Source: Erythrobasidium yunnanense (Eukaryota > Basidiomycota > Cystobasidiomycetes > Erythrobasidiales > Erythrobasidiaceae). Taken from it: DNA of 64,000 nucleotides. Location: positions 635,968-699,967 of the forward strand of contig BCJC01000006.1 of NCBI GenBank assembly GCA_001600175.1, read 5' to 3'. Position 1 is the stretch's first letter, and each line of letters opens with the position of its first letter. Positions 11,780 through 49,985 of this stretch are shown piece after piece. Made by a program: the position numbers and the translations under genes. The notes under the pieces were generated by a model. That model was not told the origin of the DNA. It ran no database searches and saw nothing but the letters and a program-made list of their open reading frames with translations.

Positions 11780-14700
11780 TCATGCATCATAAGCTACACG
11801 GGCACCAGCAAACACATACGGGTAATTGGCTTGGTACTGTGTACGTGAAGCCATGTCAGCATGTAGCTTGCTCAGTGAGAAGCGGAGCCAGGCTTACCCA
11901 ATTTGTAAAGGTCTTCCTGCCAGCTACACGAGGGATGGTAGCTGAAGCAATGCGAAGAAGCTGTCAGCGGACGAGAAGGTGTGTGCAAGCTACTGACTCA
12001 CCAAAAGATCCACCCAGCATAACCCAATGACAGCCATCAAAGAAATCGCGTGAATAGTCTGGGTAAAGCTCAGATGCTTGCCATCCTTCCCACGCTTCGA
12101 AACAAGTGCTTGTCCACTCCCAGACACCTCCGTTGGAAGCGCCTGTCTGCGTACCGTTGCGGAGTCTATTCGGCAGACGAGCTCTGTTAAACAGAATGGG
12201 CGGCATCAGCCAAGCACAGAGAAGAAAGTTCGAAAGATCATAACTTACGGGACTGGATGCCAGTTCATGAAGCCTATATTGGCTCCGACATGATCTACCG
12301 GATGATCCTCCAAGAATCGCCGAAGTTCAGGCTCGGTAGGTAATCTGCCTCCTACGCTCTTTGCGTAAGCCTCAAGCTGCTTTCCAGATGCCATGCATGG
12401 CCAGTCTCTCCCAATGTCCAGGTTTACTCGACTCGGCTCTGTGAGCACTTTAATGGACACTTCGCCATCCGATGAGACTGTCCACGAGCCAGGAGTTAGA
12501 TTATCAGGTCTGCCATGCTCTAACCAGAATCTGTGATAGTCGGAATTGCTGATCGGTAGAAGGGATACCCTGAAAGCTGGTACCGAAACATCGCGCCTTG
12601 GAGCTTCGTTATCCCAGCCGAAAGTATGCTTGGCGTCATACTTTGTTTCAGCATCCAGATGATCTGAATCATCGTGTCCTACGCTGATCGTACTAGCCTC
12701 GAATGACTGAACAAGATTGCGCGTGGGCCGTCTTTCTGAAGCGACCTGTTTCTCCCATAGTGCAGATAAGCCTGCCCAGTCTGGCTTGCTAAAGCTTGGT
12801 GCACAATGGAGCTTTCCAGCTGGGATTTGGGCGGCCATGCTGTAAGGACAATAAGATAGGACATCAGTCTCATAAGTTCCGCTGACCATGTCGGTCCGGC
12901 GCCCCAGACTTACTATAGCAGGGTCTCCAAATGCATAACCTCGTGCTCGTACACCATAGCCATGGTTCTTGCCAATCTCCTATCCGTCTTTTCCGGATCT
13001 GCCAGACGAGTCTCGTATATGTTGGCCAGTCTAGCTCGAACGCGATTCCGGTATTCTACGATCTCGGATACCGAAGGCCAGTCTTCCATACGTGTAGGTA
13101 CAACGGAGTGGGCGTGCACTTTCGATGGATCATCCATATTTGGGTCGATACCTGCATTTATCGCTTAGCAAGAGATTCGTGTTCAGTCATGACTGGAAGA
13201 AGGCGCACCTCGCTCGAACATATCTGGGAAATGGGCTGGCTCGGTGTATGGCTCCTTGAGATACCTCTGTTTGCATGCATCAACACAATCAGCATTGACG
13301 AATCCGATATGCCTGATATCCGATACCCACACTCATGTGGATATCCAAGAAACCTGGAATATGTCCGAGATAGAAGAGGCAGATATGTCTGAGGTCGATC
13401 GGCTTGGTATGCAGAAGATCTTGCGGGATCATCGAGAGAGTCTGAATTTACACTTAGCATCAGCTTTACAGTCATACACGCTTGAAGGATAATAGACACG
13501 CACTACACAGTCCCAAGCCTTCCACAATCTATCCCATTCACTGAGCGTAGGCAGTCCGAACGGGTTCTCCCCTCGTTCAATGATATCTCTCGTGCTCTCA
13601 AACCCGAACCCAGGCTTTTCAAGTAGCCATAGATGGTAGTCTTCTCCTTGTGCGTCTGTAGACCATCTATCTACTACTCGAAGACCACTTGAGCCGAATA
13701 AATCGAGTGCTTCGTGCAGGGAATACTTGTAAGATCTCTCGATGCGGATCAGCTCGTCTTGAGCAAGAGTGATGGGTGCGTCGCGGTATGTGAATGCGAC
13801 CTCTTTCTTTGGTACTATGTAAGCCTAGTCCAAGCCTGCAAGTCAGCAAATTTACAAGCGACAGGAGAAATGACACATACCTCGTGTCTTCCCTTCTCCT
13901 TGTTATATCGATTCTTATACTCGAAGTCCTCCTGCTTCAAGCCTACATCCCCCAGAATCTGATTGACGTGATCGATTCCATTCAGAATAAAGCCTTTTGT
14001 GACATTGTCGGAGTCGTTATAGGCTTTCTCAATCATCGGCTTATCGTTCGTCGAGTCGATACCGATGAGTAGAGTGTCGCCAACTTTCATGCCTTCGTTC
14101 GCGATCTGGCGGAGGAAGTCGATGGCTTCCGTGCGCGAGTAGTTGCCGATGGAGGAGCCTAGGAAGAGAATGCATTTCTTCTCATCTGCATCTTGAAGCT
14201 TGCCGTCGGCGTTGTTACTGTCATATGATCCATCGCGTAGATGCGGGAAAGCTTCTTCGTACGAAGCGCAGATACCTTTGGCGACGATCTTATCGTCTGC
14301 ACCTTCTTTACTTCCATCGAGTGTAACAGTATCTTTCGAGCCTTCTTCGAGCTTAGCAAGCGTTTCTTCCAGCTGTCGATATTCGAGGTCCAAAGCGTAA
14401 TACTTGATCTTTCCACTTGTAATAGCTTCGCCTTCGGTGGCCTTGTTTGCAGCTCGTACGTTCGCTAAGGCTTTCAAGAGCACGGAAGTCTTCTTTAATG
14501 ACCCCGCGCCGAGCTCAATGATGGAGGTCGTCGTGGTCGATGATGGGATGGCACCTTCGCCAAGGCCAAGATTCCCGTTGACACTGTCATTCAAGTGATC
14601 TCAGTAAAGACATGGTGCCCGAAAGCAAAACTATCTAGCCTACCCGAAGTTGTTTCTCCCAACGCTCGCATCACCCCTACAAGCCGTCGAAACAGTGCTC

Positions 14701-15462
14701 AGCATGCTGAAAAGGACTTCTCATGTATAGAGTAGACGAGGCGACTGACCACTTCTCCTCGACGTCCAGTCTCTGTGGGAGTCCGATATAGCCGGAATCC
14801 TCTTCTCCATCTTCTGTTTCTTCATCATTTTTGCCTTCCTTGTCATCTGATGCAGCACTACTCTCATCTGTCAAGGCATTCTCTGACAGCGGAGGCGTCG
14901 ATGCCGCAGACCGACTTGGCGATGCTGACGGAGGACCGGTTAATTTGGATGCGGAGACTGGATACGCCAGCAGTCGTTTGGCCTGCGAGTATCGTGTATG
15001 AGTATAGGAATGTATGAAACAGAGAAGCACGTCGACTTGCGATGCTCTCGCCGTGCTCCTGCAGGATCGTCAACTCCGAGTTGTAAAGGTAGTATTCCTC
15101 GCATTGGGTGATCTGGTCGTATATGTCGAGGCCTGGAGGTAATTGTAAGCTTCTAGAACTACTACGAGCTTCTTATTCAGGCCAGCTTGCCTTTGTCATC
15201 GTACAGCACCACTGCGATTTAGGGGTCAGTTACCGTTCGCAAGGCATACAGAGCTCTTCGGCTTGTACTCACTTGTTGGTATATGCTTTGTGTATGTATA
15301 CTGTTTGCTCTCATCGTCTGTGCCCGTCGTGCGAAGCTCCGTTCTTGTCAGGCCCTCGATGATGCTTTCTGCCAGCGGGTTGTTTGATGTAGTTTCTTCG
15401 TCGTCACTACTGCTATTGTTCTTGATGCTGTTGTGCCCTCGTAGATTGACTATCTGCGCCAT
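11780..15462 (-). CDS. egt1: Ergothioneine biosynthesis protein Egt1 (EgtD-EgtB fusion)
   Basis: Bifunctional enzyme: the N-terminal half trimethylates histidine to hercynine with SAM; the C-terminal half is an iron-dependent sulfoxide synthase joining hercynine to cysteine. The N-terminal methyltransferase shows EEYYLYNSELTILQEHG, IIELGAGSLKKT, YALDLEYRQLEETL and FLGSSIGNYSR. The DinB_2 part has LRHICLFYLGHIPGFLDIHM and YEHEVMHLETLL, giving the metal-binding histidines. The FGE-sulfatase part has GGVWEWTSTCF and ends FTNWYQANYPYVFAGARVAY. The start is ATG 15462 and the stop TGA 11782-11780. Many short introns; two early ones use GC donors (GCAAGC and GCAAGT). Residues near 14.8 kb form a Ser/Glu-rich insert not usual in the family. 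The 5' end is duplicated at 17.4-17.9 kb. Confidence 0.95.
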
Positions 15463-15614
15463 GTTGTTTGGTTGTTCTTAAGAAGCAATGACAGGTGATG
15501 ATCCTCGCTTAGCCGGTCTCCAAATATACAGCTACCGCAAGTGAACGATTTCCATCAAGATCCTCGTCAAGAAGGAGATTCTACGTGCTTATTTGCTGCC
15601 GCCAATCTGCCGTT
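15463..15614. promoter_or_regulatory. Divergent promoter of egt1 (copy A of a duplicated block)
   Basis: 152 bases between the egt1 ATG (15462) and an ATG at 15615 that opens a relic of the PEP-mutase-like gene. It shares clear stretches with 17855-18032, for example GAAGCAATGACAGGTGATGA and CCTCGCTTA, so this promoter region is one of two copies. No individual regulatory motif was assigned. Confidence 0.65.
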
Positions 15615-15665
15615 ATGACTGCATCTACCTTCCGCCTGGCCGCTTCTATGTATATTGTGAAAATC
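15615..15665 (+). pseudogene. Relic of the 5' end of the PEP-mutase-like gene (copy A)
   Basis: Reads ATGACTGCATCTACCTTCCG and then GCTTCTATG, against ATGTCTACATCTACCTTTCG and GCTTCTATC at the intact gene (18033). The encoded start is M-T-A-S-T-F-R-L-A-A-S versus M-S-T-S-T-F-R-P-A-A-S. After about 45 bases the reading frame is lost. Only scattered similarity may continue to about 15.8 kb. It is placed relative to egt1 just as the intact gene is placed relative to the egt1 fragment, so it is best read as a decayed duplicate. Confidence 0.7.
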
Positions 15666-16250
15666 ACCTGACTGTAAACAAGTCAGTCGCAGCTTCTGAC
15701 GTCTATGCGCTCGCAGTCGAGGCCCTCTCTCTACATGACAGCATGACGGAAACGCAACTTTGCTCCCTCAGCGTCTTGGCGAGCTTCGACCAGCGGCTTC
15801 CCTTGTCCGTACCGACAAGGTTGTGGATATGGCACACCCACTTGTATCACTATTCCTCTTCTTCTATCGATCTTTAGTCCAGCCAAATCCAAGATCCACA
15901 AAGCGACTTCTCGATGTCACGCCTGTTGTGATCTCGAAGGGTCTTGCTCTGGCATGGCACACATGTCAGCGGATAACTTCCATCTGCTGTGATCCGTCTG
16001 AATGATCGAAAGGGCTTGGACTGAAACAAAGGCCATGTCCCAGTGTAGGCTCATCTCCGATCTGAGAACGGTGAGAAAGCCGCTGCCGCCCCGCTGACCT
16101 GACTGTTGCAGCTAGCTCTTTTGCTTTCGTCCTTCACAGTCTTGCCCACATAGAGTGTGAGTGACAGCGCAGCACCCCCAACAGCACTATAATGCAGATG
16201 AGTTAGCAGCACTCCCCGCCTGCTCCTCGTAGAGTGTTTCCTTTTGGCTG
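15666..16250. other. Non-coding spacer, possibly decayed gene
   Basis: No convincing gene. It may be the eroded remainder of the duplicated PEP-mutase-like gene, but by eye the similarity is too weak beyond the first 50 bases to claim this. It also holds the upstream region of the 16251 gene. Confidence 0.4.
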
Positions 16251-16862
16251 ATGTGGAGCATTACAGTCCGCACAATGGCAGTTTACGATGTCGTAGCTCT
16301 GAAGGGATACTGGGCGTTCGACCCGTACAAAGACCTCGACTATCCGATGCAGAGTTACTTTGTGAATGTGTCCGCCAACCTTGGCTCCCCATCGCAGCCA
16401 AAAACCGTCGAGAAGTCATTCGCAGTGGACCGAGACAACCTCAAGCTCCCCAACAGGTATGGAGGGTTTGAGGATGGAGAATGGATGCTTTCAAAGTGTC
16501 CAGGTCACATCAGGAAGAAGGATCCCTACTTTGTATGGAAGTACCTTGTGGAGCATGTTCCTCAAGGTCAGGGACATCTTGCTCTCAAGATGAAAGTCTG
16601 GGAGGATTGCCTCGACTACTACGGCAAGCCGCGATGGGAGCTCGTATACGTCAAGCCATCCACAAGAGTGACGCAGCTGCAGACTCCAGGCGGAGCAGCT
16701 CCAGTACCTCCTCTACGTACTGGTTCCTCTTCGCAGACGTCTATCAGCATGCCTACAAGGAAATCGTCTCGCTCTCCGAACGTCACTTCGTCCTCGAGCA
16801 TCAGTCGTCCACGATCCAACAGCATGCAGTCTCGTTCTTCCTTGTCCGTGAAGAAGGCTTGA
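16251..16862 (+). CDS. Hypothetical protein, 203 residues
   Basis: Uninterrupted frame from ATG 16251 (MWSITVRTMAVYDV) to a stop at 16862; a second in-frame ATG at 16275 (MAVYDVVALKGYWAF) could be the true start. The first 130 residues look globular and aromatic-rich (GYWAFDPYKDLDYPMQSYF, then DPYFVWKYLVEHVPQGQGHL). The last 60 are Ser/Arg/Pro-rich and probably disordered. No signal peptide or membrane segment is seen. The family is not recognised. It sits between the two copies of the egt1/PEP-mutase promoter block, so it was either present in the ancestral interval or inserted there. Confidence 0.55.
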   Translation: MWSITVRTMAVYDVVALKGYWAFDPYKDLDYPMQSYFVNVSANLGSPSQPKTVEKSFAVDRDNLKLPNRYGGFEDGEWMLSKCPGHIRKKDPYFVWKYLVEHVPQGQGHLALKMKVWEDCLDYYGKPRWELVYVKPSTRVTQLQTPGGAAPVPPLRTGSSSQTSISMPTRKSSRSPNVTSSSSISRPRSNSMQSRSSLSVKKA

Positions 16863-16930
16863 TGGGATCCGTATACTGCTGGGTATGGTACGTATTCCTG
16901 GTGGAATCGTGTACACTATACCGCGAATCA

Positions 16931-17137
16931 TTAGACGGATAGGTTCCTCATTCGCTCTTGTAAAGCCAATCTCTCCTCTTCTGCCGAATGCTTCAGCGCT
17001 TGCTCTTGTCGATCTCGTCTCTCCTTGATCCTGCTGAGTATTGCGCTATACTGCGGTCCAACACATACTTTGGTAGGATGAGCGCCTCTCCAACACCGTG
17101 ATCTGCGTCTTCTTCCAGGTCTGTCTGCAACACTCAT
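16931..17137 (-). CDS. Possible short basic protein or terminal exon
   Basis: A 68-codon frame (SVADRPGRRRRSRCW..., ending RLALQERMRNLSV) with a charged, helical-looking C-terminus (ERRDRQEQALKHSAEEE). It may be the last exon of a gene whose earlier exon lies at 17160-17381 (MKFVAFLETKRAKYD), but no clean splice junction was found. Convergent with the 16251 gene. Weak. Confidence 0.25.
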   Translation of the reverse strand: MSVADRPGRRRRSRCWRGAHPTKVCVGPQYSAILSRIKERRDRQEQALKHSAEEERLALQERMRNLSV

Positions 17138-17444
17138 CAGCGGTCAATGAGATTGATCATCAAAGCGTTGCCAAATCGTATTTTGCCCTTTTCGTTTCAA
17201 GAAATGCGACAAACTTCATGATGGCAGGTAGCGCTGCGCCTAGTGGATTCTTCGAACGTAGCCTGGAGCCATTCGTCCGAGCCTTTGAATTACATCCCAT
17301 AAGTTCCTGCGGGTCTGCGGGGTTCCAGGTCGATTCGATGATTGCGGACAATCTGTATGAGAGACTCCAGACCGGATTCATCTATACCGCTGTGGATGAT
17401 CGACATTCCATTCGTTTTCAGTCTGCAGACGTCAAATGGAGAAG

Positions 17445-17860
17445 ACTAGCGTTCAGCTCCGAATTGTAGAGGCAGTAATCCTCGCATTCGGTGATGTTCG
17501 TAGTGGCCGAGTCCTAGAAGCAGTTGTAAGCTTCATGACTTCTGAATGCTCGCTGATGTCAGGCCAGCTTGCCCTTGTCATCCTAGAGCAACACTGCAAT
17601 GCAGGGTTCAAGTACTTAGCGCTCGCAGAGCACGCCCAGCTCTTCGGCTTGTACGTATTCGTTGGTACATGCTTGGTATATGTGCACTGCTTGCTTTCAT
17701 AGTCTGTCCCTGTCATGCGAAGCTCCGTCTTTGTCAGGCCCTCGATGATGCTTTCTGCCAGCGGGTTGTTTGATGTAGTTTCTTCGTCGACACTACTGCT
17801 ATTGTTCTTGATGCTGTTGTGCCCTCGTAGAATGACTTAGACTATCTGTGCTATGATGTT
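17445..17860 (-). pseudogene. Duplicated 5' fragment of egt1 (copy B), non-functional
   Basis: Closely matches the first three exons and introns of egt1 at about 15070-15462. Both share the exon-1 end (E-S-K-Q-Y/C-T-Y-T-K-H), the GGGCAAGCTGGCCTGA stretch around the GC donor, and GCCTCGTAGA/CTCGTAGAATG near the start. The initiator ATG of egt1 corresponds to ATA here, and homology stops near 17445 in exon 3, before any catalytic motif. The remaining methyltransferase, DinB and FGE parts are absent, so this cannot encode an enzyme. It is adjacent and divergent to the intact PEP-mutase-like gene. Confidence 0.85.
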
Positions 17861-18032
17861 TGGTTGCTCTAAAGAAGCAATGACAGGTGATGATGGATCC
17901 TCGCTTAACCGGGCTCGAAATATACTAGTGACTGCAAAAGTGACTGATAGTTCAAACGACCAGCTCTCAGCTTCCTGCTAACCATCAGAACAGAAAGTCT
18001 ACCCTTACCTAGCTGTTCAATCTGCCCTCATC

Positions 18033-19010
18033 ATGTCTACATCTACCTTTCGCCCAGCTGCTTCTATCCTGCGCGAACAACTCGCTGGGAACAAGACAAT
18101 CGTAGCTCCAGGCGTATATGATGGCTTCACTGCTCGACTCGCGCTTGCAGCTGGACACAAGACGCTATACATGACGGGCGCAGGCACTTCTCTGTCAAGA
18201 TTAGGTCAGCCAGACCTGGCGTTGATCACCCTGACCGAGATGCTGCAAAACGCCGCTATGATTGCTGGACTTGAATCATCCGTGCCTCTCATCGCGGATG
18301 CGGATGTTGGGTTTGGTGGACCACTCTCCGTACGAAGGACTATCAAGGCATATATCGATGCGAATATTGCTGGGCTGCATATAGAAGATCAGGTCTGTCT
18401 TCACGTCTTTTCTGAGATTGCCGTACGTGCTAAGTAGATTGTATATTTGTCATCCTAGGTCATCTCAAAGCGGTGTGGTCACTTACAGAGCAAGCAGCTC
18501 GTTAGCCAAGAAGAGTTCGTTACACGCATACGAGCAGCCGTAGCTGCGCGTGAAGAGTCTGGACGCGACATCGTTATCATAGCAAGGACGGATGCTCTCC
18601 AATCCTTCGGCTACGACGAAGCTATCAAGCGCTTAAAAGCTGCAATAGCTGTAGGCGCCGACGTAGCGTTCTTCGAAGCTGTACAGAGCGAAGAACAGAT
18701 GCGAAATTCGATTCGTGATCTCAGTCCAACTCCATGCCTGGTCAACATGATCCCCGGCGGAGCAACACCTATCCTTACAGCAGCGCAAGCGCAAGATATA
18801 GGATACAAGATCATGATCTGGCCCGTCATGTTGCTTTCAGAAGTCTATGCGAATGCAAATAGAGCTTTGAAGCAGCTCAAAGAGACGGGCTATGCGGACC
18901 CACCAAAGAAGGGAGAGGGTCTCATCAGAGAACTGTTTGAAGTAGTTGGACTTAATGAGTGCCAGGACTTTGATGCGAAGATAGGTGGGAAAGCTTACGA
19001 AAAGGTGTAA
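18033..19010 (+). CDS. Isocitrate lyase/PEP mutase superfamily enzyme
   Basis: Two exons, 18033-18392 and 18459-19010, giving 303 residues, normal for the PEP-mutase/methylisocitrate-lyase-like group. It starts MSTSTFRPAASILREQL. Seen motifs are APGVYDGFTARLA, the metal-binding ADADVGFGG, IEDQ, then KRCGHL with the presumed catalytic Cys just after the intron, IIARTDAL, and GADVAFFEA. Such TIM-barrel enzymes cleave or form C-C or P-C bonds of 2-oxo acids (2-methylisocitrate, oxaloacetate, phosphonopyruvate); the actual substrate cannot be told. No targeting peptide is evident. It was divergent with egt1 before duplication and loss separated them, which suggests, but does not prove, shared regulation. 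Confidence 0.9.
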
Positions 19011-33708: not shown

Positions 33709-33826
33709 ATCTACGGCCATACCAAGCAAGAAGCACTGCATCCCGTCCGATCTGCAAAGTTAAGCTGCTTAGGGCCTCGTCAGTACTATGGTGGGGGACC
33801 ACATGGGAATCCGAGGTGCCGTAGGT
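33709..33826 (+). rRNA. 5S ribosomal RNA gene
   Basis: Recognised from the strongly conserved 5S core: CTACGGCCATACC at the start, AGCACTGCATCCCGTCCGAT, CTGCAAAGTTAAGC and GGTGGGGGACCACATGGGAA, ending GGTGCCGTAGGT. The ends pair as helix I over nine bases with one G-U (AUCUACGGC with GCCGUAGGU). Length about 118, normal. The internal promoter boxes for TFIIIA are within the gene. It is a single copy between protein genes, as in fungi with dispersed 5S genes. Confidence 0.95.
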
Positions 33827-33831
33827 TCTTC

Positions 33832-33836: not shown

Positions 33837-34115
33837 CCTGGCTTTCTCCTTCTCCTCTTTTTTTCTTCGTCTCAACACGTCCATCGACTTCAGCCTAAGG
33901 AGCTTGTTTTCGCAGTCCATGCGTCTCCTACAACGCAAGCTCCTGAGGACAGACATGATGCAACCTTCCTCCATCGATCTTCTACACGCTAAGTGTGCTT
34001 TGCGGACCATTCCCGAGCACGGGTCTCTCCTGTGCAAATTTTCGGTTTCTCGTCTGGCTGCGACCTTCTCCTCTTTCTGCCCAATCCCCTTCCCTCCCTG
34101 CAAATCGGCCTGAAG

Positions 34116-35492
34116 ATGACCAACGTTGTCCCATGGCGTGTACAAGAAGGGTCTGCTCCTGCGATCATCCCATCACTTTCGAGCAAGACGAGCATAGACT
34201 CCCTGCCAGACGAGATGCTGGCCCGCATAGTGCAGGAAGTCGCTGGCTTCCTTGAATACGACGAGATGTGGCGTGGCTATACCAGAACTCCCGACTCCAA
34301 TGCAGATCTTCGCTCCCTTCGTCTCGTTAATATACGCCTTTCTGGCATGGCTCAGCGCGAGATGTATCGCGCTCCTGGCACACTAGCCAACCTCCGCTGC
34401 CCACTCTCAAGGACCACACAGCATATCCTGCTTCATCCGCTGGTGGGCGAAGTAGCGCAGATGTTGAGCCTGGCCGGGGACGCGGGCCTCTTCGCCGATC
34501 TACTGGAAGGAAGCTTCTTCAATCTCACATCTCTGGCTCTCGTCTTTACGGTGCCGACAAATCTTGATGCCAGCGATGTCGACCAATTGTCGCACTTGTC
34601 GCGTCGTTACGCTCTTGATAGGATGCGCAAGGCAATACAGCGGCTCTCGTTGAAGAACCTGTACCTTTACTTTCGGCCAGATTTCCATGCCTTGAGAGTC
34701 GACTTCTCTCGGGTTGTGTTAATGGCAGCTGGCCACCCCACCCTGCGACACTTCACTATAGACGGCCTAAACTGTAATGGAACAACGGAACGGGAACGGG
34801 CTATACGACAGGATCGCGTATCTCCATTCCTCTCATCGCTGGACATACGGAATTGCAGCAAGCAGCAGATCCAGATCCTGCATCATGAGCTCGGCAGCAT
34901 GCCACTGTTATCGAGAATCAAGATGCAGTGCTCCCAGCCTGGACGCGACAACGATCTGGTGCATACACTAGAAGCTCTTCGTTCCGATGTCAAGGGTCAG
35001 ATCCTAAACTTGACACTGAGTCCTCACGCCTGGCATGCTCAAGTCTGGCAGAACTTGGCTGGTTATCACGATCTACGGCGCCTTAACATTCATTTTAAGG
35101 CCGGGTCAGCATTTGAGGTCGAGTTCAGCGATATAGTTCTTCCCAATCTGGAGACGCTTGTCGTGGAATGCTACCGGGTCTTACCTTTCGCAATGGCAGC
35201 CCTCAAGCAAGCTGCAAAGCGCCATCTTCTGCCAAGCTTGAGGAGTCTCGAACTTTACGATCTATACATCCAACCTCGCCCGTGGGAGAAGGAGCGTACA
35301 CACGCTCTACTCACTGCCTACGATGAGTTCGTCGCTTGCAACACTGAGATCAGAATTACGCCGCCCGATATTAGAGAGACTGTGGCCCGGCAACTGGAAA
35401 AGCTAGAGAATAGTAGCGATGGAGAGACGGCAACAGACACCTCAGAGTCAGAAGATAGCTCAGATTCAGAATCGGGTAGCTCAGATGGGTAA
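34116..35492 (+). CDS. F-box/LRR-like protein, tandem paralogue 1
   Basis: Single exon, 458 residues from ATG 34116 (MTNVVPWRVQEGSAP); the frame is open further up but only from a GTG. An F-box-like motif lies at about residues 22-75 (SIDSLPDEMLARIVQEVAGF, then LRSLRLVNIRLSGMAQREMY), giving presumed Skp1 binding for an SCF ubiquitin ligase. Degenerate leucine-rich repeats follow (NLTSLALVF, HPTLRHFTIDGL, SPFLSSLDIRNCS, LPNLETLVVEC, LPSLRSLELYDL). The tail is Ser/Asp/Glu-rich. Intronless, unlike the surrounding genes. Paralogues 2, 4 and 5 share the landmarks SLAG.A.FFA.LL and AAGHPTLRH. The target protein is unknown. Confidence 0.8.
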   Translation: MTNVVPWRVQEGSAPAIIPSLSSKTSIDSLPDEMLARIVQEVAGFLEYDEMWRGYTRTPDSNADLRSLRLVNIRLSGMAQREMYRAPGTLANLRCPLSRTTQHILLHPLVGEVAQMLSLAGDAGLFADLLEGSFFNLTSLALVFTVPTNLDASDVDQLSHLSRRYALDRMRKAIQRLSLKNLYLYFRPDFHALRVDFSRVVLMAAGHPTLRHFTIDGLNCNGTTERERAIRQDRVSPFLSSLDIRNCSKQQIQILHHELGSMPLLSRIKMQCSQPGRDNDLVHTLEALRSDVKGQILNLTLSPHAWHAQVWQNLAGYHDLRRLNIHFKAGSAFEVEFSDIVLPNLETLVVECYRVLPFAMAALKQAAKRHLLPSLRSLELYDLYIQPRPWEKERTHALLTAYDEFVACNTEIRITPPDIRETVARQLEKLENSSDGETATDTSESEDSSDSESGSSDG

Positions 35493-35707
35493 GCATCCGG
35501 TTCCGAGGCAGACTCTGCTGCAGCGAGACAAGGGGTGTCAAGAGCGTTGTGATACACAGTCGGATGCTCGATTACCTTCCAACATGCCGAGGTTGTACTT
35601 TCCATAGCGTTAGCTCGTGGCTTTGCTTCTTTCCTTTAACTCCTGCTGAAACGGCAATCTCTCCTAGTCATCGGCCGCTTGTGTGTCGATGTATGAGCTG
35701 TCAGATC

Positions 35708-35743
35708 CTGCGCAAGGAGTGTCAGATCCTGCTCCTTGCGCAG
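35708..35743. repeat. Perfect 12-bp inverted repeat (hairpin)
   Basis: CTGCGCAAGGAG (35708-35719) and CTCCTTGCGCAG (35732-35743) are perfect reverse complements around a 12-base loop. GTCAGATCCTGC also occurs as a direct repeat overlapping the arm and loop. It lies 26 bases before ATG 35770, so it is either in the 5' leader or in the first codons of paralogue 2. Confidence 0.9.
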
Positions 35744-35769
35744 CACCTTTGATATTAAGCAAGACGAGC

Positions 35770-37008
35770 ATGGCCTCCCTGCCAGACGAGATCCTCCAGA
35801 ACATAGTCCAGCACCTCGCTGGCGAGCTCGTCTACGATAAGGGATATGAAGGATACATCAGACGCGGACGGGCAAATTTCTGGCTACGGAATCTTCGACT
35901 CGTCAAACGACGTTTCGCTCAGATGTGTCAGAACGAGCTGTACTGTGCTCCAAGCACAATGACAAGCCAGCAGGAACCCCTTTCCAGTGACCACCTCGAC
36001 ATTCTTCTCCATCCAGGCATAGGCCAATCAGCCCGCATGCTGAGTTTGGCTGGCAGCTCGGCCTTCTTCGCCGGACTGCTCAAGACAGGCTTCACAAATC
36101 TCACATGTCTGACGTTGCTATTCACGGTGCCCCACGTTAATTACAATGCAATTCAAGCCAGAAGCATCCTTGAAGAGAAGTCGGTCGCCCAGCTTCGCAC
36201 TATCATACAGACTCTCCCGCTCAAGGAGCTCCGAATCCGCTTCAAGGGCAAGCTCAATGCAAGAATACGTAGTTATTTCCAGACCGTGCGTCTGGGTGCT
36301 GGCCATGCTATAATGCAACACTTCGCAATAGACGCATGGCCTCAGTCCGGGCCAGGCATCCTTCACGATGATCCTGAGTACGAGACAATGGATTGCACTT
36401 CCTTCCTCACATCATTGACCCTGCGACACATCTGTTCGGACGAAGCGGAAGACGTCCAAGTGATTGAAGCTGGATTGGGGAGCTTGCCAAATCTGACAAG
36501 ATTATCCATTGACACCTCGAACGACTCGGGCGACGTTACAGGCGCAATCAAAGCTCTCACATCTGCTTTGAAGCAAAATGTGCCCTGCTTAAATCTGGCA
36601 GTGGATGTTCTACCGCCTACGATATGGGACCTTTTCGGAAGCTTCCCCAGGCTGCAAAGCCTGATACTTCGATCTTGCTGGTTGGAGAAGAGCGATATGG
36701 AGCTTGCAGAAGCCCATCTTCCTGCCTTGAAGACTATTCGACTTGACTGCATATCGGGGGTCTCATTCATCACCACCTTTCTCAACAGCTTGGCCGCTGG
36801 ACGCCTCTTTCCCAGTCTGAGAAGCCTTCACATCGTCATAGGAGAGTACAGCTTGCCATATAGCAAGCAGGAGGAGCTACTGGCGCTGATCAGCGCGTAT
36901 GACGGCTATCTAGCAAGGAGCACTGGCGTCTCTGTTACTCCAGCAAACATTAGAGAGACTCTCGTGCAGAAATTGCAAGTCCTGGTAGATAGCGGATCTG
37001 GCCGGTAA
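35770..37008 (+). CDS. F-box/LRR-like protein, tandem paralogue 2
   Basis: Single exon. ATG 35770 (MASLPDEILQNIVQHLAG) aligns with the F-box of the others; an upstream in-frame ATG at 35689 would add 27 residues and read through the hairpin at 35708-35743. The second half of the F-box is LRNLRLVKRRFAQMCQNELY. LRR-like segments follow: NLTCLTLLFTV, LPNLTRLSIDTSND, FPRLQSLILRSCW, LPALKTIRLDCI and FPSLRSLHIVIG. It ends with the family's C-terminal motif (AYDGYLARSTGVSVTPANIR). Divergence from paralogue 1 is high, only the framework being shared, so the duplication is not recent. Confidence 0.78.
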   Translation: MASLPDEILQNIVQHLAGELVYDKGYEGYIRRGRANFWLRNLRLVKRRFAQMCQNELYCAPSTMTSQQEPLSSDHLDILLHPGIGQSARMLSLAGSSAFFAGLLKTGFTNLTCLTLLFTVPHVNYNAIQARSILEEKSVAQLRTIIQTLPLKELRIRFKGKLNARIRSYFQTVRLGAGHAIMQHFAIDAWPQSGPGILHDDPEYETMDCTSFLTSLTLRHICSDEAEDVQVIEAGLGSLPNLTRLSIDTSNDSGDVTGAIKALTSALKQNVPCLNLAVDVLPPTIWDLFGSFPRLQSLILRSCWLEKSDMELAEAHLPALKTIRLDCISGVSFITTFLNSLAAGRLFPSLRSLHIVIGEYSLPYSKQEELLALISAYDGYLARSTGVSVTPANIRETLVQKLQVLVDSGSGR

Positions 37009-37320
37009 ATCAGCTTGCAATTGATCTTGAAGCTGAAGTCGCGGAAGGTACGAAGCAGCCTCGCGTGCTTTCAGTGACAGCGGCAACTTTTCGGCTGTCA
37101 TGCAATCAGTGCGCCAACAAAGCCCAATTTCGCCATACTTATGATATACGCTGATGCACAGCCTTACCGCAGAGTTTTCCGTACCACCTCGATACCTCTG
37201 TGTTGGTGGCCTCGTTGTCGCATGACCCTATCTGGGGATCGCTCGTTTCGCGTGCCATGAAGGTATCTGACGAAATTCATACGATTTCCAGCGATGCGCT
37301 TTTGGTCTATCCCGAATCGC

Positions 37321-38341
37321 AGAACGCGAATTATACCGCATACCGAGCAGCATGAAGAACGATCAACAACCGTTCATATGCGATCACCTGGACATTCTCT
37401 CTCATCCTTCAACCATGGCACTAGCTCAGATCTTCAGCGTAGCCGGAACGCCTGCTTTCCTTGCCGGACTACTTAGCTAGCGCTTTGCGAATCTGAGGTT
37501 GCTAGGACTGGTATTCAAAAGTTCAAATACTGGATTTGAGTACCGCGAGAGCGATCTCTTGAAATTTGAAGCGCAAAAAGCCCTGACTCGCTTGCGAGGC
37601 GTAGTGCAGGCTATCCCGCTGCAGGGACATCACCTATACTGCGAAGACTATTCTTCAGGAGAGGAGTTTTGTCAGACACTCATGCTCGCCGCTGGTCATC
37701 CCACGCTACGACACTTAGTGGTAGACAGAGCTTGTACAAGGCGGGGCGGGCAAGACAGGCTAGACGACCTTGAACAGGGTACTACAGCCTCGACATCTAT
37801 TACTTCCCTCGACGTGCGTCGCTTCAGAAAGGAAGACGTTAAAATACTCAGGAATGCCCTTGGCGCGCTCCCGAATCTATCAGAACTCTCATTTGACTTC
37901 CGTAAAACTCCAGCCGATCCTCTACAGACACTCAAAGCCCTCACTGCTGGTCTGAACCAGAGCATAACTCGCTTGAATGTTACTAGCGATTCTCTACGGG
38001 GTGCATTCTGGACAAATCTGCCTCACTTTCCAAATTTGCGGATCCTAACGCTCGATTCGTCAGGAGGCAGCGACAGCAAGTTACAGCTGGGTGATGTTCA
38101 CTTATCACAGCTAGAAATCGTCGTTGCAAATCATCACGAGCTGGACGTTTACGCCCATATCCGGCGAAAGGCCGCAAACAGGCGTCTTCTCCCAAACTTG
38201 AGCCGCATCCATTTGCATGTAAGGAAGCGAGGACAAGGGTGGGATACGGAGGACGGCCATGCGCTGCTGCTCGCATAACAGGATGTCGTTGCTCTCGATG
38301 TCGAGATCAGGATTATGCCCGCGAGTCTGTAGGGAGATGGT
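37321..38341 (+). pseudogene. F-box/LRR-like paralogue 3, decayed
   Basis: Aligns with paralogues 4 and 5 from ERELYRIPSSM-like codons near 37325 (read as E-R-E-L-Y-R-I-P-S-S-M) through CDHLDILSHPS, VAGTPAFLAGLL, LAAGHPTLRHLVVD, LPNLSELSFDF and LPNLSRIHLHV. The F-box itself is not found upstream. An in-frame TAG at 37478-37480 interrupts the SLAG...FFAGLL...RFLNL region. A TAA at 38276-38278 falls where relatives read AYDE/AYDG, after which the homologous tail (VEIRIMPASL) continues to a further stop. Loss of the F-box plus two nonsense codons makes this a host pseudogene; the remaining 259-codon frame 37499-38278 might be transcribed. Confidence 0.8.
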
Positions 38342-38692
38342 TCTTGACAAGTTAGCGCGCCTAAATCGTCTATCTTGATTCTTCGTGTTTGTTGTGCGCG
38401 ACTCGCGGCACTCGCATGTGGTCATTTGATGCTGCTTCGCTTTGCCCTCACAGGCTGGAAGTGCATTTGACCTTGCTTTTCGGTCACGTCAACACCATAC
38501 TCTGCTAACGGTCTACGTACTTCGGCCTTCTGGTCGGACGTTTGCGCACGGACCTATCTGCCCAAAACTCGCAAAATGGAAAAGCGATGCTCACCTTCGT
38601 GCTGATCTCTTCCTCACTGCAAATCACCGGCAGCGGCGCGAGTCTCTCTTCTTGGCAGCCTTTCTTGGTTGCGCGAGGGTCTCCTTGACGCA
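38342..38692. other. Spacer within the F-box array
   Basis: About 350 bases between paralogues 3 and 4; presumably the promoter of paralogue 4. Nothing else assigned. Confidence 0.4.
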
Positions 38693-39967
38693 ATGGCGAG
38701 CAAGAAGAGTCTGGATTCGATGCCCGACGAGATCCTTCAGAACACAGTCGAGCAGGTTGCTGGCGCGATAGAATACAACGACGATCTTCGAGGTTACACC
38801 AGGGACTTACTGGGGAACAGATGCCTTCGCGACCTTCGCCTCGTTAATAGGCGCATCTCCTCCATCGCTCGTCGCGAATTGTATCGCATCCCAAGCAGCA
38901 TGTCGAGTCTACAGAAAACGGGGCATCAGCTCTGTCTCTCCAGCGATCATCTCCACATCCTATTCCACCCATTGCTAGAGAAGGCAGCCCGACTTCTCAG
39001 TCTAGCTGGGACGTCGGCTTTCTTCGCCGGTATACTCGAGACACGGTTCCTCAACCTTACCTCTCTGACTCTAGTCTTCTCGAAGGACAGTGGTGGAGAT
39101 TGTCTCGTCGCATCGGGTTCGCGCGGTGGGACATCTCTTGCCGTGCTCGGCAAAGCTTTGCAGACTGTCCCGCTGCGAAACCTGTCAATCCATTTTCGGG
39201 AGGATTTTCGTTCATCTAGATACGAGTTCTTCCAGATCGTGTCTTTAGCCGCTGGTCACCCTAAGTTACAGTCTCTCGCGATAGACCCAGCGCCAAGAGC
39301 TTGGTCTGACGAGACTGACTCTCTCATAGTCGATACGTACGCTGTCACATCTATACGTTCTATAGACCTGGGCAGTTCTTTTCACGCGGCAATCAAAATT
39401 ATACAAAGCAGCTTGGGCAGTATGCCAGATTTATCAAGACTATCGGTCGACACTCGACATCGTTCAAACAGCCCCGTCACAATATTTAGCGCTCTATCTG
39501 CTGCCAGCAGGCAAAGCGTAACGTCGCTGGACTTTCAGATGACTGACCTTCACGCCGAACTTTGGGAGGCTCTGGCCAGCCTTCCCAACCTGCAGACTCT
39601 CGAGCTTCGAGAGCTAGCGAATAGTATCTCTGGGGAATTGGGAGAGGTGGTCCTCCCGAAGTTGGAGACCATATTCGTTGACTGCCGCTACGATCTGTCA
39701 GTCGCCTGCATCATCCTGGAACAAGCTGCACAACGTCATCTACTTCCTAGTATGACAGAAATATCGATACTTGGTGACAACAGCGGATCTATGCGACCAG
39801 ATGACGAGATGATCGAGGATCAGGAGGGCTTCCTCGAAGCATATGACGAACTGGCTGCCTTGAAAACAGGCATTGAGATATGGCCCCCGGACATTAGGGA
39901 TGCTGTCGCACAGAGCCTAAAAGATCTGCATTCGAAGGGTGTGCAAGACTTGGCACCTAGCGACTAG
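38693..39967 (+). CDS. F-box/LRR-like protein, tandem paralogue 4
   Basis: Single exon, 424 residues from ATG 38693 (MASKKSLDSMPDEILQNTVE); the frame continues upstream only to a TTG. F-box halves are SLDSMPDEILQNTVEQVAG and LRDLRLVNRRISSIARRELY. LRR-like strands follow: NLTSLTLVF, HPKLQSLAID, MPDLSRLSVDTRH, LPNLQTLELREL, LPKLETIFVDC and LPSMTEISILG, then the tail motif IEIWPPDIRDAVAQSLKDL. Closest in layout to paralogues 3 and 5. Presumed SCF substrate receptor; ligand unknown. Confidence 0.8.
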   Translation: MASKKSLDSMPDEILQNTVEQVAGAIEYNDDLRGYTRDLLGNRCLRDLRLVNRRISSIARRELYRIPSSMSSLQKTGHQLCLSSDHLHILFHPLLEKAARLLSLAGTSAFFAGILETRFLNLTSLTLVFSKDSGGDCLVASGSRGGTSLAVLGKALQTVPLRNLSIHFREDFRSSRYEFFQIVSLAAGHPKLQSLAIDPAPRAWSDETDSLIVDTYAVTSIRSIDLGSSFHAAIKIIQSSLGSMPDLSRLSVDTRHRSNSPVTIFSALSAASRQSVTSLDFQMTDLHAELWEALASLPNLQTLELRELANSISGELGEVVLPKLETIFVDCRYDLSVACIILEQAAQRHLLPSMTEISILGDNSGSMRPDDEMIEDQEGFLEAYDELAALKTGIEIWPPDIRDAVAQSLKDLHSKGVQDLAPSD

Positions 39968-40312
39968 ACGTGGATCTTGGGCTTGTCGGTGCGTCTCGCA
40001 AGGCACAGCGCAACCAACGCCGTATTGCTGCTACAGTGCTAAGCGCTTGCTGCAATACGGCACAACACTCTAAGTCACAGACCTTTTCGAAAACCTTTAG
40101 TAAATTGTTAGCGACTCGATACGATAGGAATAGCGTTTCGAATCAACCACGAGGTGTTGTATAGCAATGTGCGTCAGCATAGATACTACATTTGCATCAA
40201 CGAGAACTGGCTTGCTCGAAAGGCACAGCCATCGACAGGATTTTCGCGTCTGGCGACTGTTTACTCTTATCCATCTACCCAACTGCTCAAATATCTCTGC
40301 ACCAGATCTCTC
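39968..40312. other. Spacer within the F-box array, with a hairpin
   Basis: About 345 bases between paralogues 4 and 5. A perfect 10-bp inverted repeat, GCCGTATTGC (40019-40028) and GCAATACGGC (40052-40061), with a 23-base loop, lies just downstream of the paralogue 4 stop. It could act in 3'-end formation or be chance. Confidence 0.5.
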
Positions 40313-41605
40313 ATGGATCTGCAGAAGGAACATCGTGAAATCATTGCAAAGACGTCTCTGGATTCGCTGCCCGATGAAACCCTACAATATATAGTCGAGC
40401 TGGTCGGCGGTCCTATATCCTACAGCGAATCCGGTCGCAGTTACTCCAGGCAATGGAATTGCAGTTCGCACCTCCGCAACCTTCGTTGCGTCAACAGGCG
40501 CCTGGGTCATCTCGCAGGGCTGGAGCTATATCGCACTCCAAATACATTGATAGCGGCCGAGGGGCCTTTGTCTATCAAGCATCAGCGCATTCTCGATCAC
40601 GGGCCAGTCACTCATGTCGCCAAAAACCTAAGTCTGGCCGGAACGGCCACTTTCTTCGCTGGGCTGTTCGAAAGTCGCTTCCTCGATCTTATCTCTTTGG
40701 CCCTGGTCTTCCAGAGAAATGCTGTCGGCATTGTAGATGTCGCAAACGACCCGCCTTGCGTATTCGACCCGACAGCCCTTACTTCTCTTCGCAACGCCTT
40801 ACAAAGTCTCCCTCTGCGCGAACTCCGCATCCATTTTCAAGGTGTTATCCATGCATCCACATACGAGCACTTCCAGCTACTATCCCTTGCCGCCGGTCAT
40901 CCTACCCTGGGACACCTTGCTATGGGCAGACCACCCGTTGCCAGCGTCTCGGTGGCAGAAGAAGGCTCTGGCTCTACGAGGACCCCTTCGGATACATATA
41001 TCACGTCACTGGCGGTCCGTTGTCACGAGCTGGACGTCGAGAATATCCGAAAAGCCTTAGGGAGCCTGCCTTATTTGTCGAAACTTTCCATCGATTGTCG
41101 AAAAGAATTAGGCAACCCTACGCGGACTACGACCGCTCTCACTTCTGGTGTCAGTCACAGCATTTCCTACCTAGAGCTCGCGGTGGACAGCGTCGAGCCT
41201 GAACTTTGGCAGTCACTGGCCAGCTTTCCCAACCTAGCGAGCTTGACATTGCGGTCCTTCCCTTCGTCGGGTGCCGGTAGGAGATTGGATCTTGGGGATG
41301 CTTGTTTACCAAATTTGAAGGAAATTACCCTCGACGCCTCGATAACTGTTGATAACGCAATCCTCGAGCAAATCGTACAAAGACGACGTCTTCCTAGCTT
41401 GGCTAGTCTCTACCTCCATTTCACTGCAATCCGGCTCTATCGATTCGAAAGAGAGGCGGCTCGCCTGTTCTTTTCGCTGTACGACGGGCTTCAGGCATCG
41501 GATAGTGGTGTGGTGATTCGCCCTGCTGGCATCAGAAGAACCATAGTATACATGTTAAAGACTATGGAGGAGAGACTAGGCCTGAGGCCGGAAGATCAGT
41601 CTTAG
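40313..41605 (+). CDS. F-box/LRR-like protein, tandem paralogue 5
   Basis: Single exon, 430 residues from ATG 40313 (MDLQKEHREIIAKTSLDSL); the open frame reaches 40154 but only through a TTG. F-box: SLDSLPDETLQYIVELVGG and LRNLRCVNRRLGHLAGLELY. Body landmarks are SLAGTATFFAGLFESRFLDL, SLAAGHPTLGHLAM, LPYLSKLSIDCRK, FPNLASLTLRSF, LPNLKEITLD and LPSLASLYLHF. The tail motif is VVIRPAGIRRTIVYMLKTM. It ends the array; RPT2 follows 330 bases downstream on the same strand. Confidence 0.8.
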   Translation: MDLQKEHREIIAKTSLDSLPDETLQYIVELVGGPISYSESGRSYSRQWNCSSHLRNLRCVNRRLGHLAGLELYRTPNTLIAAEGPLSIKHQRILDHGPVTHVAKNLSLAGTATFFAGLFESRFLDLISLALVFQRNAVGIVDVANDPPCVFDPTALTSLRNALQSLPLRELRIHFQGVIHASTYEHFQLLSLAAGHPTLGHLAMGRPPVASVSVAEEGSGSTRTPSDTYITSLAVRCHELDVENIRKALGSLPYLSKLSIDCRKELGNPTRTTTALTSGVSHSISYLELAVDSVEPELWQSLASFPNLASLTLRSFPSSGAGRRLDLGDACLPNLKEITLDASITVDNAILEQIVQRRRLPSLASLYLHFTAIRLYRFEREAARLFFSLYDGLQASDSGVVIRPAGIRRTIVYMLKTMEERLGLRPEDQS

Positions 41606-45422: not shown

Positions 45423-46041
45423 CTAGGCATAAGCTGTGATCTGGAAGAGCTGTGGAAACGTTCATGAGTCAGCCAAACTCTTTTCGATGGTGCTGGAATC
45501 CTACCTGGTCTGCCGTCGGCTTGAACAGAGAGCAATCGCGCTTCTGCAGCCAGCGACCCTCTGCATCTCTTCCGACACAGTTGTTTTCTACTGTATCACC
45601 ATGGTAGATGGAGCATAGAGAGCTGCCTTCGGAAACGCCAGACCCTTTGGCGCACCTGAAATTCCAAACTCGTTCTGCAGCGGGCCACCCTGTAAGGCAG
45701 TTAGCTGAATAACCGACTGTGCCGTCGTTGGGATTCCATCCCATGCATCCATTACCACCGTCTATGTCGACGTTGTGGATCAGAAACCCAGTCCCCTCGC
45801 GGCCAAGCTTGGCCCCTCTGACAAAGATACTTGGGTTGATGGCCAGATTAGCATTGGCCGTAGGAATGGTGGTAACAGCATGCATGGTGTAGATCGATCC
45901 GTCCTTGAAGCGGTCATCGGCGACTTCGAAAAGCGTCAAATCTCTGACTTCTCGGGCTTGAAGATTGCTGGTCTCGACAGGCATGGCGGCGCCAAAGATA
46001 GTGCCAGTGACCAGTGCAGCAGCAGCGTATCTGTATAGCAT
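45423..46041 (-). CDS. Small secreted protein, family A member 1
   Basis: Starts MLYRYAAAALVTGTIFGAAM (signal peptide) followed by a short propeptide-like stretch (QAREVRDLTLFEV). The mature part has spaced Cys (NGCMGWNPNDGTVGY, ANCLTGW, VWNFRCAKG, SLCSIYHGDT, NNCVGRDAEGRWLQKRDCS). A last intron GTAGGA...CACAG joins ADQ to LFQITAYA and a stop at 45425-45423, exactly as in member 2. About 190 residues. No known domain recognised. Size, secretion signal and tandem duplication fit effector-type or surface proteins, but function is unknown. Confidence 0.75.
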
Positions 46042-46665
46042 GCTGAGATCCGGATTTAGGGTGCTTTGTGATCGAATGTGGTATGTGTGTGCGCGGCGGT
46101 GTCGCTGCTGTTGGTCTAAAGCGAATGAGTTGTGCAGAATGAAGAGAGAGGAAGGCCCATCGATATAGCGGTTTTATCTGTCAGTATTTGGCTCAGGTAC
46201 AAAGGTATGTCACGAAAAGCTAACGGCCCATACAAGCGGACTAGCACCTTCAAGCGCTGAGAACGTCGCACGCTTTTGTGACAGTTCCGCTGTTTGAGCT
46301 CGATTCAGAGAAGCTCGACAGCCGGATGACCTTTTACGAGATCTTGACAGGTTTGGAAGAAAGCCGTGAAGATGGTTGCTTAGCAGATCGGAAGCCATGC
46401 AGACGTGTTTGAGGATGGGATATTTATATTAGCTGCGGCATTCATAGAGAGGAGTATTTTGCCATTGACCGAAACACTCTACGCGGAAAAGCCTTTCGGG
46501 TGACTACTTCAAGGCTGGAGGTCGAAAGCCAGCGATCAGTAGCTAAACAAGAAGAACGTGTTCCTCGCGGAAGGGAGGGGAATACACTGATATGTTCGTT
46601 TATTGATCGTAGCAAAGGGGTATATAGGCTGACGAAGATAAACGAAGAAGAATACTGCCAGAAGA
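46042..46665. other. Spacer between secreted-protein genes
   Basis: About 620 bases upstream of family A member 1. Short frames only; presumably its promoter plus the 3' end of member 2. Confidence 0.4.
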
Positions 46666-47276
46666 TCAGGCATAAGCGGCGATCTGGAAGAGCTGTGACA
46701 CCTCTTCGTCAGCCTATGGCTGCTGTTCAGCCCCTTTGGCACGCAACCCACCTGGTCTTTGCTTGGATTCGTAATACTGCAATCCTTCTTCTGGGTCCAC
46801 TTTCCAGCGTCACCTCTTGAAATGCATGACTTCTCTGCAGTATCGCCCCTATATAGTGAGCATACTGCACTCCCACCGACAGTTCCAAAGCTGTTCCAGC
46901 ACCTGATATTCCATACTCGTTGGGATACAGACCATCCTGCTTTGCAGTCCGGATTAAAGCCAATAGAACCATCGCCGTCATTCCATCCAACACATCCTCT
47001 ATCTTTCAGGATCACATTGTAGCCGGTACCTTCTTTCTTCAAACTGAGTCCCATGACATAGATGGCGGGATCGACAGCTAGCGTAGCATCGGCAGTCGGT
47101 AATTGTGAGATAGCGTATGTGAGGTATGTTGACGTCTCCTTGAAGTAACCGTCGTTCAACTTGTACAGCGTTAAATCCCTGACCTCTCGGGTTTGAAGAT
47201 CGCTGGATTGGACAGGAATGGCGCTAATCAAGAGAGCGCCTGTGGCTAGTGCAGCACCGATGTATCTGTAGAGCAT
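46666..47276 (-). CDS. Small secreted protein, family A member 2
   Basis: Paralogue of the 45423-46041 gene. Starts MLYRYIGAALATGALLISAI (signal peptide), then QTREVRDLTLYKL. It shares the Cys-spaced core (RGCVGWNDGDGSIGF, DCKAGW, VWNIRCWNS, AVCSLYRGDT, KSCISRGDAGKW). With the same final intron (GTGGGT...CACAG) it ends DQ-LFQIAAYA, stop 46668-46666. Reading through that intron would give a longer hydrophobic tail, but conservation of the spliced end in both paralogues argues for splicing. Function unknown. Confidence 0.75.
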
Positions 47277-47670
47277 AATGGTTTGTCGACAGAAATTCTG
47301 GTCTGAACTCCGGTTTGGGTGTGTGTTACGCAGAAAGCTACCAGAGCTGTTGTCGGCGTGAAGTGAGTGTGGTGAATAGTCAGTCGTGCTGAAGGAGAGC
47401 GAAAGGAGGGGTAGTTAGTATGCTGGCATACCTGTCATCAGCCTTTGTTTGCCTGTATCTAAGGGAACATACTGAAAAGTAAGCAATCCGTTAAGATCGG
47501 GTTTCGACCTTCGACACCTGAGACAGTGAATACTTCGCAGCTCGTAAAGCGCCTCTGCTAGCTCAGAGGAGTTAGCTGACAATGGCACAGAAGATTGATC
47601 GGATAACAAACATTAACGAGCTGACCTTGAAAGAGACAGAAGAGCCGCTGGAGTACAAATATTCGAAATA
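47277..47670. other. Spacer between secreted families A and B
   Basis: About 390 bases; upstream region of family A member 2 and downstream region of family B member 1. Nothing else recognised. Confidence 0.4.
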
Positions 47671-48993: not shown

Positions 48994-49985
48994 CTAGGAG
49001 CAGTAGCCTGTAAAGCGCCCACGTTTTTCCTTGCAAGAAGCATGAGCTGGGTCCAACCAGATTCTAGCTGAAAGTGCTGTAATGGGAGCTGTAGTTTCGA
49101 AGGTTCCATCTGGCTTATGTCCACCTGCGCAGATGCAACTTCAACTTCATTGTTGGGAGCGTTCGCGTCCGAGCCTGGAAAGAAAGCCCCGCTACTCTTT
49201 ATAGCTCTGGCGAGTTCGCCTCGGAAAGTGCCTGAAAACGAAGTGAAGGATTGGGAGGCCTGACATTAGCAGAAACTCATCGAGTACGAGGACAAGCAAA
49301 CGTACGCCAAGCTTTGGGTCCGTTGACAGCAGGTGGAGCGTCGACATAACTGTCAGGAAGATCAGCGACTCGGACCAAAATGTCTCCAGGCATAGTGCGG
49401 GACTTACAAGTTGAATCGACAAGTTCCGTAAACGGTATTGAGTTTCTGACACGGGCTGTCATCATTGCTGCTCCAAATCGCTAAGGGAGTGTGCTATGAA
49501 CAGATATGAGTCTCGGATGTTTGGACCAAGGCGAGACGCTTACCTTGCCAGAACCACTCTCCCACTTTATTACGAGTTGCTCGTTCGCATGAGCATCTTT
49601 AGCGATCGCGTCGGCCAGAGCTCGACAATCGTCCTGTCAGCGCCACGATAGGTAAGCCTGGCTGCGCATGTTCATGACGGCCGACCCACTGCCACTGGCA
49701 TGCACTCTTTCAGTACCTCGCCTCCCACATAATTACGCCAGGGGGCAAAGCATGACTGCTGTCCTCCATCACTCCACCCATACGTCCCTTCGGGGCATTG
49801 GGCAGTATTGGACCTGGGACTTCTTTGGACGTCAAAGGAATGCATAAACGGAAAAGGCTAAACCCTCACCTGATGAAGTCTGCCGCAACGAGACAGCTGT
49901 TGTCTGCCCGGTCCCCATTGATGTGGCTGTTACTGAGATGCAGAATGAGAATGCCAAAGAAGGCCGTGGAACTCTGATGTCGCAT
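48994..49985 (-). CDS. Small secreted protein, family B member 2 (possibly degraded)
   Basis: Starts MRHQSSTAFFGILILHLSNS (signal-peptide-like). Conserved family blocks are AQCPEGTYGWSDGGQQSCFA, DDCRALADAIAKDAHANEQL, IKWESGSGK, YGTCRFNLYVD, GELARAIKSSGAFFPGSDAN and ALSARIWLDPAHASCKEK. Closest to member 3 (DDCRALADAIAKD and the FFPGSD.NAPNNE block nearly identical). By eye, one place in its C-terminal third does not keep a single frame under simple splicing, so the gene may be non-functional or the exon model incomplete. Function unknown. Confidence 0.5.

Follow-up and report, generated by a model that had tools for sequence, protein, structure and literature searches.

A duplicated divergent promoter of egt1 and a lyase gene, with a different gene intact beside each copy, in Erythrobasidium yunnanense

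Reciprocal gene loss and subfunctionalisation after duplication are well known concepts, and the locus that we describe here, a duplicated promoter region in a 64,000-nucleotide stretch of the Erythrobasidium yunnanense genome (contig BCJC01000006.1, positions 635,968 to 699,967 of the forward strand; hereafter the window), is like their products in that each copy retains a different gene. It is unlike them in that two full sets of both genes probably never existed here. The genes are egt1 and a lyase gene of the phosphoenolpyruvate (PEP) mutase/isocitrate-lyase superfamily, with their starts head to head across a short divergent promoter. We found no published work on this gene pair, judging from titles and the beginnings of abstracts. 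PMC3403606 discusses taking tandem duplicates out of an analysis and has no bearing on the locus.

In yeasts, short divergent regions have been linked to conserved bidirectional promoters, and the excerpted text of the same study gives 80-255 bp (base pairs) as the span within which the lower size limits of promoter-containing regions fall in the individual species (PMC3128071). The two regions in our locus, 152 and 178 bp long, fall within this span, but differ from the yeast regions as excerpted in that the region is present twice, with one intact gene per copy, and in that activity is predicted only. For the filamentous fungus Magnaporthe oryzae, the excerpted text of PMC9684475 describes breaks induced with Cas12a or Cas9 that lead to small tandem duplications as one repair outcome and, as a separate outcome, to insertions from other chromosomes, sometimes including coding sequence. 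Theta-mediated end joining, too, can result in templated insertions according to PMC9779921. A filamentous fungus is therefore known to repair breaks both with adjacent duplications and with inserted coding sequence from other chromosomes. Compared with the M. oryzae repair described in that part of PMC9684475, the event here is old and natural, would have combined duplication and insertion at one junction by a putative pathway, extends across a divergent promoter and divides two genes. The proposed mechanism is ordinary; the locus is instructive, as a readable case of a shared promoter that occurs twice, each time beside a single intact gene, in which loss of coregulation could be measured.

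The two copies and their genes

The genes and promoters of the two copies, A on the left and B on the right, are as follows.

11780..15462, minus strand: intact egt1 of copy A, 14 exons, 957 amino acids, with Methyltransf_33, DinB_2 and FGE-sulfatase domains (from an exon model, Pfam and 24 homologues)
15463..15614, no strand: divergent promoter of copy A, 152 bp between two start codons
15615..15745, plus strand: lyase relic of copy A, the first ~45 codons (from alignment against shuffles)
17453..17854, minus strand: egt1 fragment of copy B, exons 1-3 (part), with ATA at the start, in-frame stops and a broken donor
17855..18032, no strand: divergent promoter of copy B, 178 bp between two start codons
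18033..19010, plus strand: intact lyase gene, 303 amino acids, with an intron at 18393-18458

Window positions 15000-15900 (901 bases), used as a query, matched three places in the 20.9-Mb genome: their own location, copy B and a stretch of 74 bp on contig C1. Copy B matches at 82% identity over query bases 71-530 (E 2.6e-125). Copy A spans 15070-~15745 and copy B spans 17453-~18165, in direct orientation, and both take in egt1 exons 1-3, the divergent promoter and the 5' end of the lyase gene. An initial annotation of the window had proposed a same-orientation duplicate of these elements about 2.4 kb apart, and pairwise alignment confirms it; the offset is 2383 at the left edge and has grown to 2418 by the lyase start codon. 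The alignment runs unbroken from 15070/17453 through the promoter, where homology is continuous, into the lyase coding sequence, and both outer borders lie within coding exons. Two measurements in that annotation need to be corrected: the left border is at 15070 instead of 15040, and the lyase relic is ~130 bases long (15615-~15745) instead of ~50.

In the exon model, egt1 of copy A has 13 introns of 56-74 bp, all of them GT-AG or GC-AG, and its product has the domains expected of EGT1 (an EgtD-EgtB fusion), with PF10017, PF12867 and PF03781 all over their cut-offs in one protein (this Pfam search was run on a first gene model, one alanine longer than the final one). In copy B the ATG has become ATA, there is an in-frame TAA in exon 1 and there are stops in exon 3, and, read by eye from the alignment, the intron-1 donor is lost and a TAG lies in exon 2; the fragment breaks off in exon 3 at 17453. 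The exon model and the alignment thus agree with the earlier description of an intact egt1 in copy A and a start-less fragment ending in exon 3 in copy B. The GC-AG introns of egt1 in copy A number two of 13, at 15190-15133 and 15040-14983.

The lyase genes show the opposite arrangement, also as annotated, with a 303-amino-acid model in copy B (ATG at 18033, stop ending at 19010) and a relic in copy A. The relic aligns with a score of 72, where the best of 500 shuffles reached 39 (0/500), and its frame closes after 18 codons. The label "PEP-mutase-like" that the gene had been given holds at the level of the superfamily, as the PEP_mutase domain PF13714 is found at E 3.6e-41 (141.7 bits against a cut-off of 31.5), but does not extend to phosphoenolpyruvate mutase proper (TIGR02320), for which the protein scores 77.9 bits against a cut-off of 319.55. 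Because the protein is so far below that cut-off, "PEP mutase" is, to judge from these scores, a superfamily label only for this gene. It also falls below the cut-offs of the prpB (241.2 against 354.4) and CPEP (203 against 420.05) models. The nearest solved chains are 3fa3 (281.7 bits) and 3lye (275.9 bits); the two proteins are a 2,3-dimethylmalate lyase and an oxaloacetate acetylhydrolase, and the motif KRCGH is common to both alignments. We take this motif to be diagnostic of the fungal 2,3-dimethylmalate lyase/oxaloacetate acetylhydrolase group, of which the protein is a candidate member. Elsewhere in its own genome the lyase has two short, distant matches, at 39% and 35%, both on contig C1.

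Both copies have the layout of a bidirectional pair, with head-to-head starts 152 and 178 bp apart. The half of the promoter on the lyase side aligns loosely, with 21/79 sites differing and nine gap openings. By its position, each intact gene now adjoins its own copy of what would have been the common promoter, and both promoter copies are presumably active.

Between the copies: the spacer and its likely history

The 1703-bp spacer between the copies holds three features.

15756..15829, minus strand: fragment of MCM4 (winged-helix domain), 74 bp, 82% identical to contig C1; Pfam of the parent gene, PF21128
16275..16862, plus strand: orphan open frame, 195 amino acids, intact, with coding-like codon usage
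17152..17454, minus strand: fragment of AVL9, from contig C3, 73/278 aligned sites differing, adjoining the egt1 fragment of copy B; Pfam of the parent gene, PF09794

The parent genes of the two fragments were named by the Pfam families MCM4_WHD, MCM and Avl9. The MCM4 piece starts ~10 bp past the end of the lyase relic. The AVL9 piece has a BLAST core at 17180-17355 (71% to C3) that was extended by alignment to 17454; similarity over 17356-17454 (99 bp) is beyond shuffles (0/500), and the left end at 17152-17179 is weak (15/500). At 17453-17454 the AVL9 alignment runs 2 bp into that of egt1, and the egt1 stretch just inside the border has no match to AVL9 (110/500 shuffles scored as high). 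The locus therefore has direct copies with foreign genomic pieces beside the copy edges at the junction. For comparison, a background search covered 38 kb of the window in 19-kb queries, with 3/4 and 4/5 of the first-look candidates scored, and gave seven scored matches, two at a 5S ribosomal RNA (rRNA) gene and five within open frames (by eye, one in a 446-amino-acid member of a tandem gene family and four in an AAA-ATPase-like frame). No stray pieces of unrelated genes were evident by eye among these seven.

From the copies, their borders, the truncations and the two foreign fragments, all of which are present in the sequence itself, we infer a single event and a repair pathway: with moderate confidence, the locus arose by one internal duplication through break repair, with foreign DNA at the junction. 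In the ancestor, one short promoter would have separated egt1 from the lyase gene, the two lying head to head. Repair of a break would have duplicated a segment of ~0.7 kb that began in egt1 exon 3, crossed the promoter and ended near codon 45 of the lyase gene; further DNA, including the MCM4 and AVL9 pieces from other contigs, would have been left between the copies. On the left, egt1 would have stayed complete while the lyase gene was cut short after its start; on the right, the lyase gene would have stayed complete while egt1 was cut short. Both partial genes would then have decayed, and a short stretch would later have been re-homogenised by gene conversion. Such an event resembles, by analogy, double-strand-break repair with inserted DNA as described for another fungus.

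The initial annotation had also reconstructed an ancestral head-to-head pair duplicated in tandem, and this part of its history is supported because both copies hold the starts of both genes. It had added the loss of the opposite partner from each copy, with selection to keep one of each implied. Since the duplicated segment has both of its ends inside the head-to-head genes, complementary truncation of both genes follows directly, and therefore neither loss nor selection is needed for the pattern; selection is not implied where a one-step duplication gives the same result. Intact and broken genes that complement each other readily suggest reciprocal loss under selection, but a single step can thus produce them.

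Alternative histories

Reciprocal loss after duplication of the whole pair in tandem would lead to the same final pattern, with both starts in both copies, so we looked in the spacer for what such losses might have left behind. The best score for the remaining 3' part of the lyase gene was 30, reached by 118/200 shuffles, and that for the remaining 3' part of egt1 was 36, reached by 30/60; the downstream flanks of the lyase gene and egt1 did not stand out in the spacer either (18/100 and 19/60 shuffles). In simulations, remnants of 100 bp were detected in 39/40 cases for the lyase gene and 17/20 for egt1, and remnants of 60 bp in 20/40 and 10/20, so power was good for remnants of at least 100 bp. 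Full deletion, or remnants shorter than ~100 bp, would be compatible with the empty search, but reciprocal loss needs two clean deletions, each halting beside foreign gene pieces, and we consider it quite improbable. An assembly artefact or an allelic duplicate is harder still to credit, and we would be very surprised by either: we found no point in support, and the copies differ by 1-30% depending on the region, carry indels and have other DNA between them. Retroposition was ruled out as the origin of copy B, as intron sequence is kept there.

A simple internal tandem duplication may also have come first, with the 1.7-kb spacer inserted later, in steps, or partly pre-existing, and the parts of the locus need not share one age. 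At codon positions 1 and 2, mismatches number 5/48 in egt1 exon 1 and 6/42 in exon 3 (both counted outside the near-identical tract described below), 15/67 in the lyase relic, 33/185 in the AVL9 piece and 8/49 in the MCM4 piece, which is homogeneous over the five parts (p = 0.53) and between filler and duplicate when pooled (p = 0.89). Pooled third positions of filler and duplicate do not differ either (p = 0.55), and AVL9 third positions (40/93) are not significantly different from duplicated coding third positions (26/79, p = 0.21). A common age of filler and duplicate is supported by these counts but not settled. One age for five parts, together with the location of both foreign pieces at the copy edges, makes a later spacer unlikely in our view.

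Several observations weigh against a single break-repair duplication. Divergence at AVL9 third positions exceeds that in the non-coding parts of the duplicate (40/93 compared to 50/192, p = 0.0045), which also favours a later or stepwise spacer, and the AVL9 piece could be older than the duplication. There is no outgroup by which to order the events, and the 2-bp overlap is too little to read junction microhomology at such divergence. Of the spacer's 1703 bp, 740 match no source, and the length of the filler and the intact orphan frame in it leave room for a spacer that was already present or was inserted afterwards. The 19-kb background queries, with best candidates only, may have missed short old fragments that the 1.8-kb spacer query could find. 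In the excerpted accounts, the M. oryzae duplications are small and listed apart from insertions (PMC9684475), and insertions from such repair are rare in yeast (PMC9779921).

One further feature bears on the later history of the copies.

15345..15445, no strand: near-identical tract, candidate gene conversion, aligned with 17731-17831 over 101 sites with 1 mismatch

The single mismatch in 101 sites compares to 118/477 in the outer parts (Fisher 4e-10), a run of such length occurred in 1/20000 permutations of the 458 well-aligned sites, and 0/34 third codon positions differ in the tract. We infer a later, short gene conversion, which fits these data best. The tract might instead be under constraint as a regulatory element used by both genes, and its distance from the lyase ATG in copy B, ~200-300 bp on the upstream side, would be plausible for a promoter element. 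However, binding sites seldom fix every base, copy B has no coding constraint in the tract, and the counts inside and outside the tract, down to its third positions, also argue against constraint, which we regard as rather unlikely.

Origin of the lyase gene and other features of the window

The lyase search scored 8000 candidates, of which the best 120 matches were listed (48 of them without an organism name) with 7569 further matches. All 72 organism-named matches among these 120 are Pezizomycotina by our reading of the names, with Neophaeococcomyces alone looked up. In a quick tree of 66 rows (65 of the 120 listed matches and the lyase), none of them known as a basidiomycete, the lyase groups with P0069, P0001 and P0002 (support 97); a set of 27 rows that holds the lyase and several named ascomycetes has support 99, and nesting of the lyase among the ascomycetes has support 39. 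P0069 is a lyase fragment, 90% identical, on a metagenome contig of 3.7 kb. For EGT1, 21 of the 24 matches are organism-named (7991 candidates scored), and by reading these are 17 basidiomycetes and 4 early-diverging fungi. The acetyl-CoA synthetase of the genome is closest to 5ifi, at 901 bits compared to 802 for the next chain; we take 5ifi to be from Cryptococcus and the next chains to be from ascomycetes. For ribosomal protein L3, the scores against several chains that we take to be ascomycete lie within ~20 bits. Based on these comparisons, the genome is probably that of a basidiomycete.

Given ascomycete named relatives in what appears to be a basidiomycete genome, horizontal transfer of the lyase gene is possible but unproven. 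We offer only tentatively, and with more doubt than belief, the fuller scenario in which a basidiomycete acquired the lyase gene from an ascomycete, the gene came to lie head to head with egt1 on the promoter of the latter, and a single break-repair duplication then gave each gene a private copy. If true, a single step would have divided a shared bidirectional promoter and placed an acquired gene under regulation of its own; should the lyase gene have been transferred, the locus would add a way for newly acquired genes to obtain a working promoter.

The orphan frame in the spacer has a codon score of 0.117 in frame, compared to a shuffle mean of -0.167 (sd 0.060). It had no homologue among 143 candidates at E <= 0.001 and no Pfam family at E <= 0.1, so we dropped it as a conserved neighbour. 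In its own genome it matches itself and one other place weakly (E 0.04), and a single-sequence structure model has a mean predicted local distance difference test score (pLDDT) of 42, which is low confidence.

Further to the right, the window holds the 5S rRNA gene at 33709-33827, 98% like a copy on contig C7, followed at 33993-41605 by a run of five long frames that appear related by eye (F-box-like), three of which carry a common 80-nt repeat at 66-76%. Two related tandem frames on the minus strand at 45469-47414 are secreted-protein-like by eye. A 107-nt direct repeat at 49539-49645 and 51076-51182 is 79% alike, its copies 1537 bp apart.

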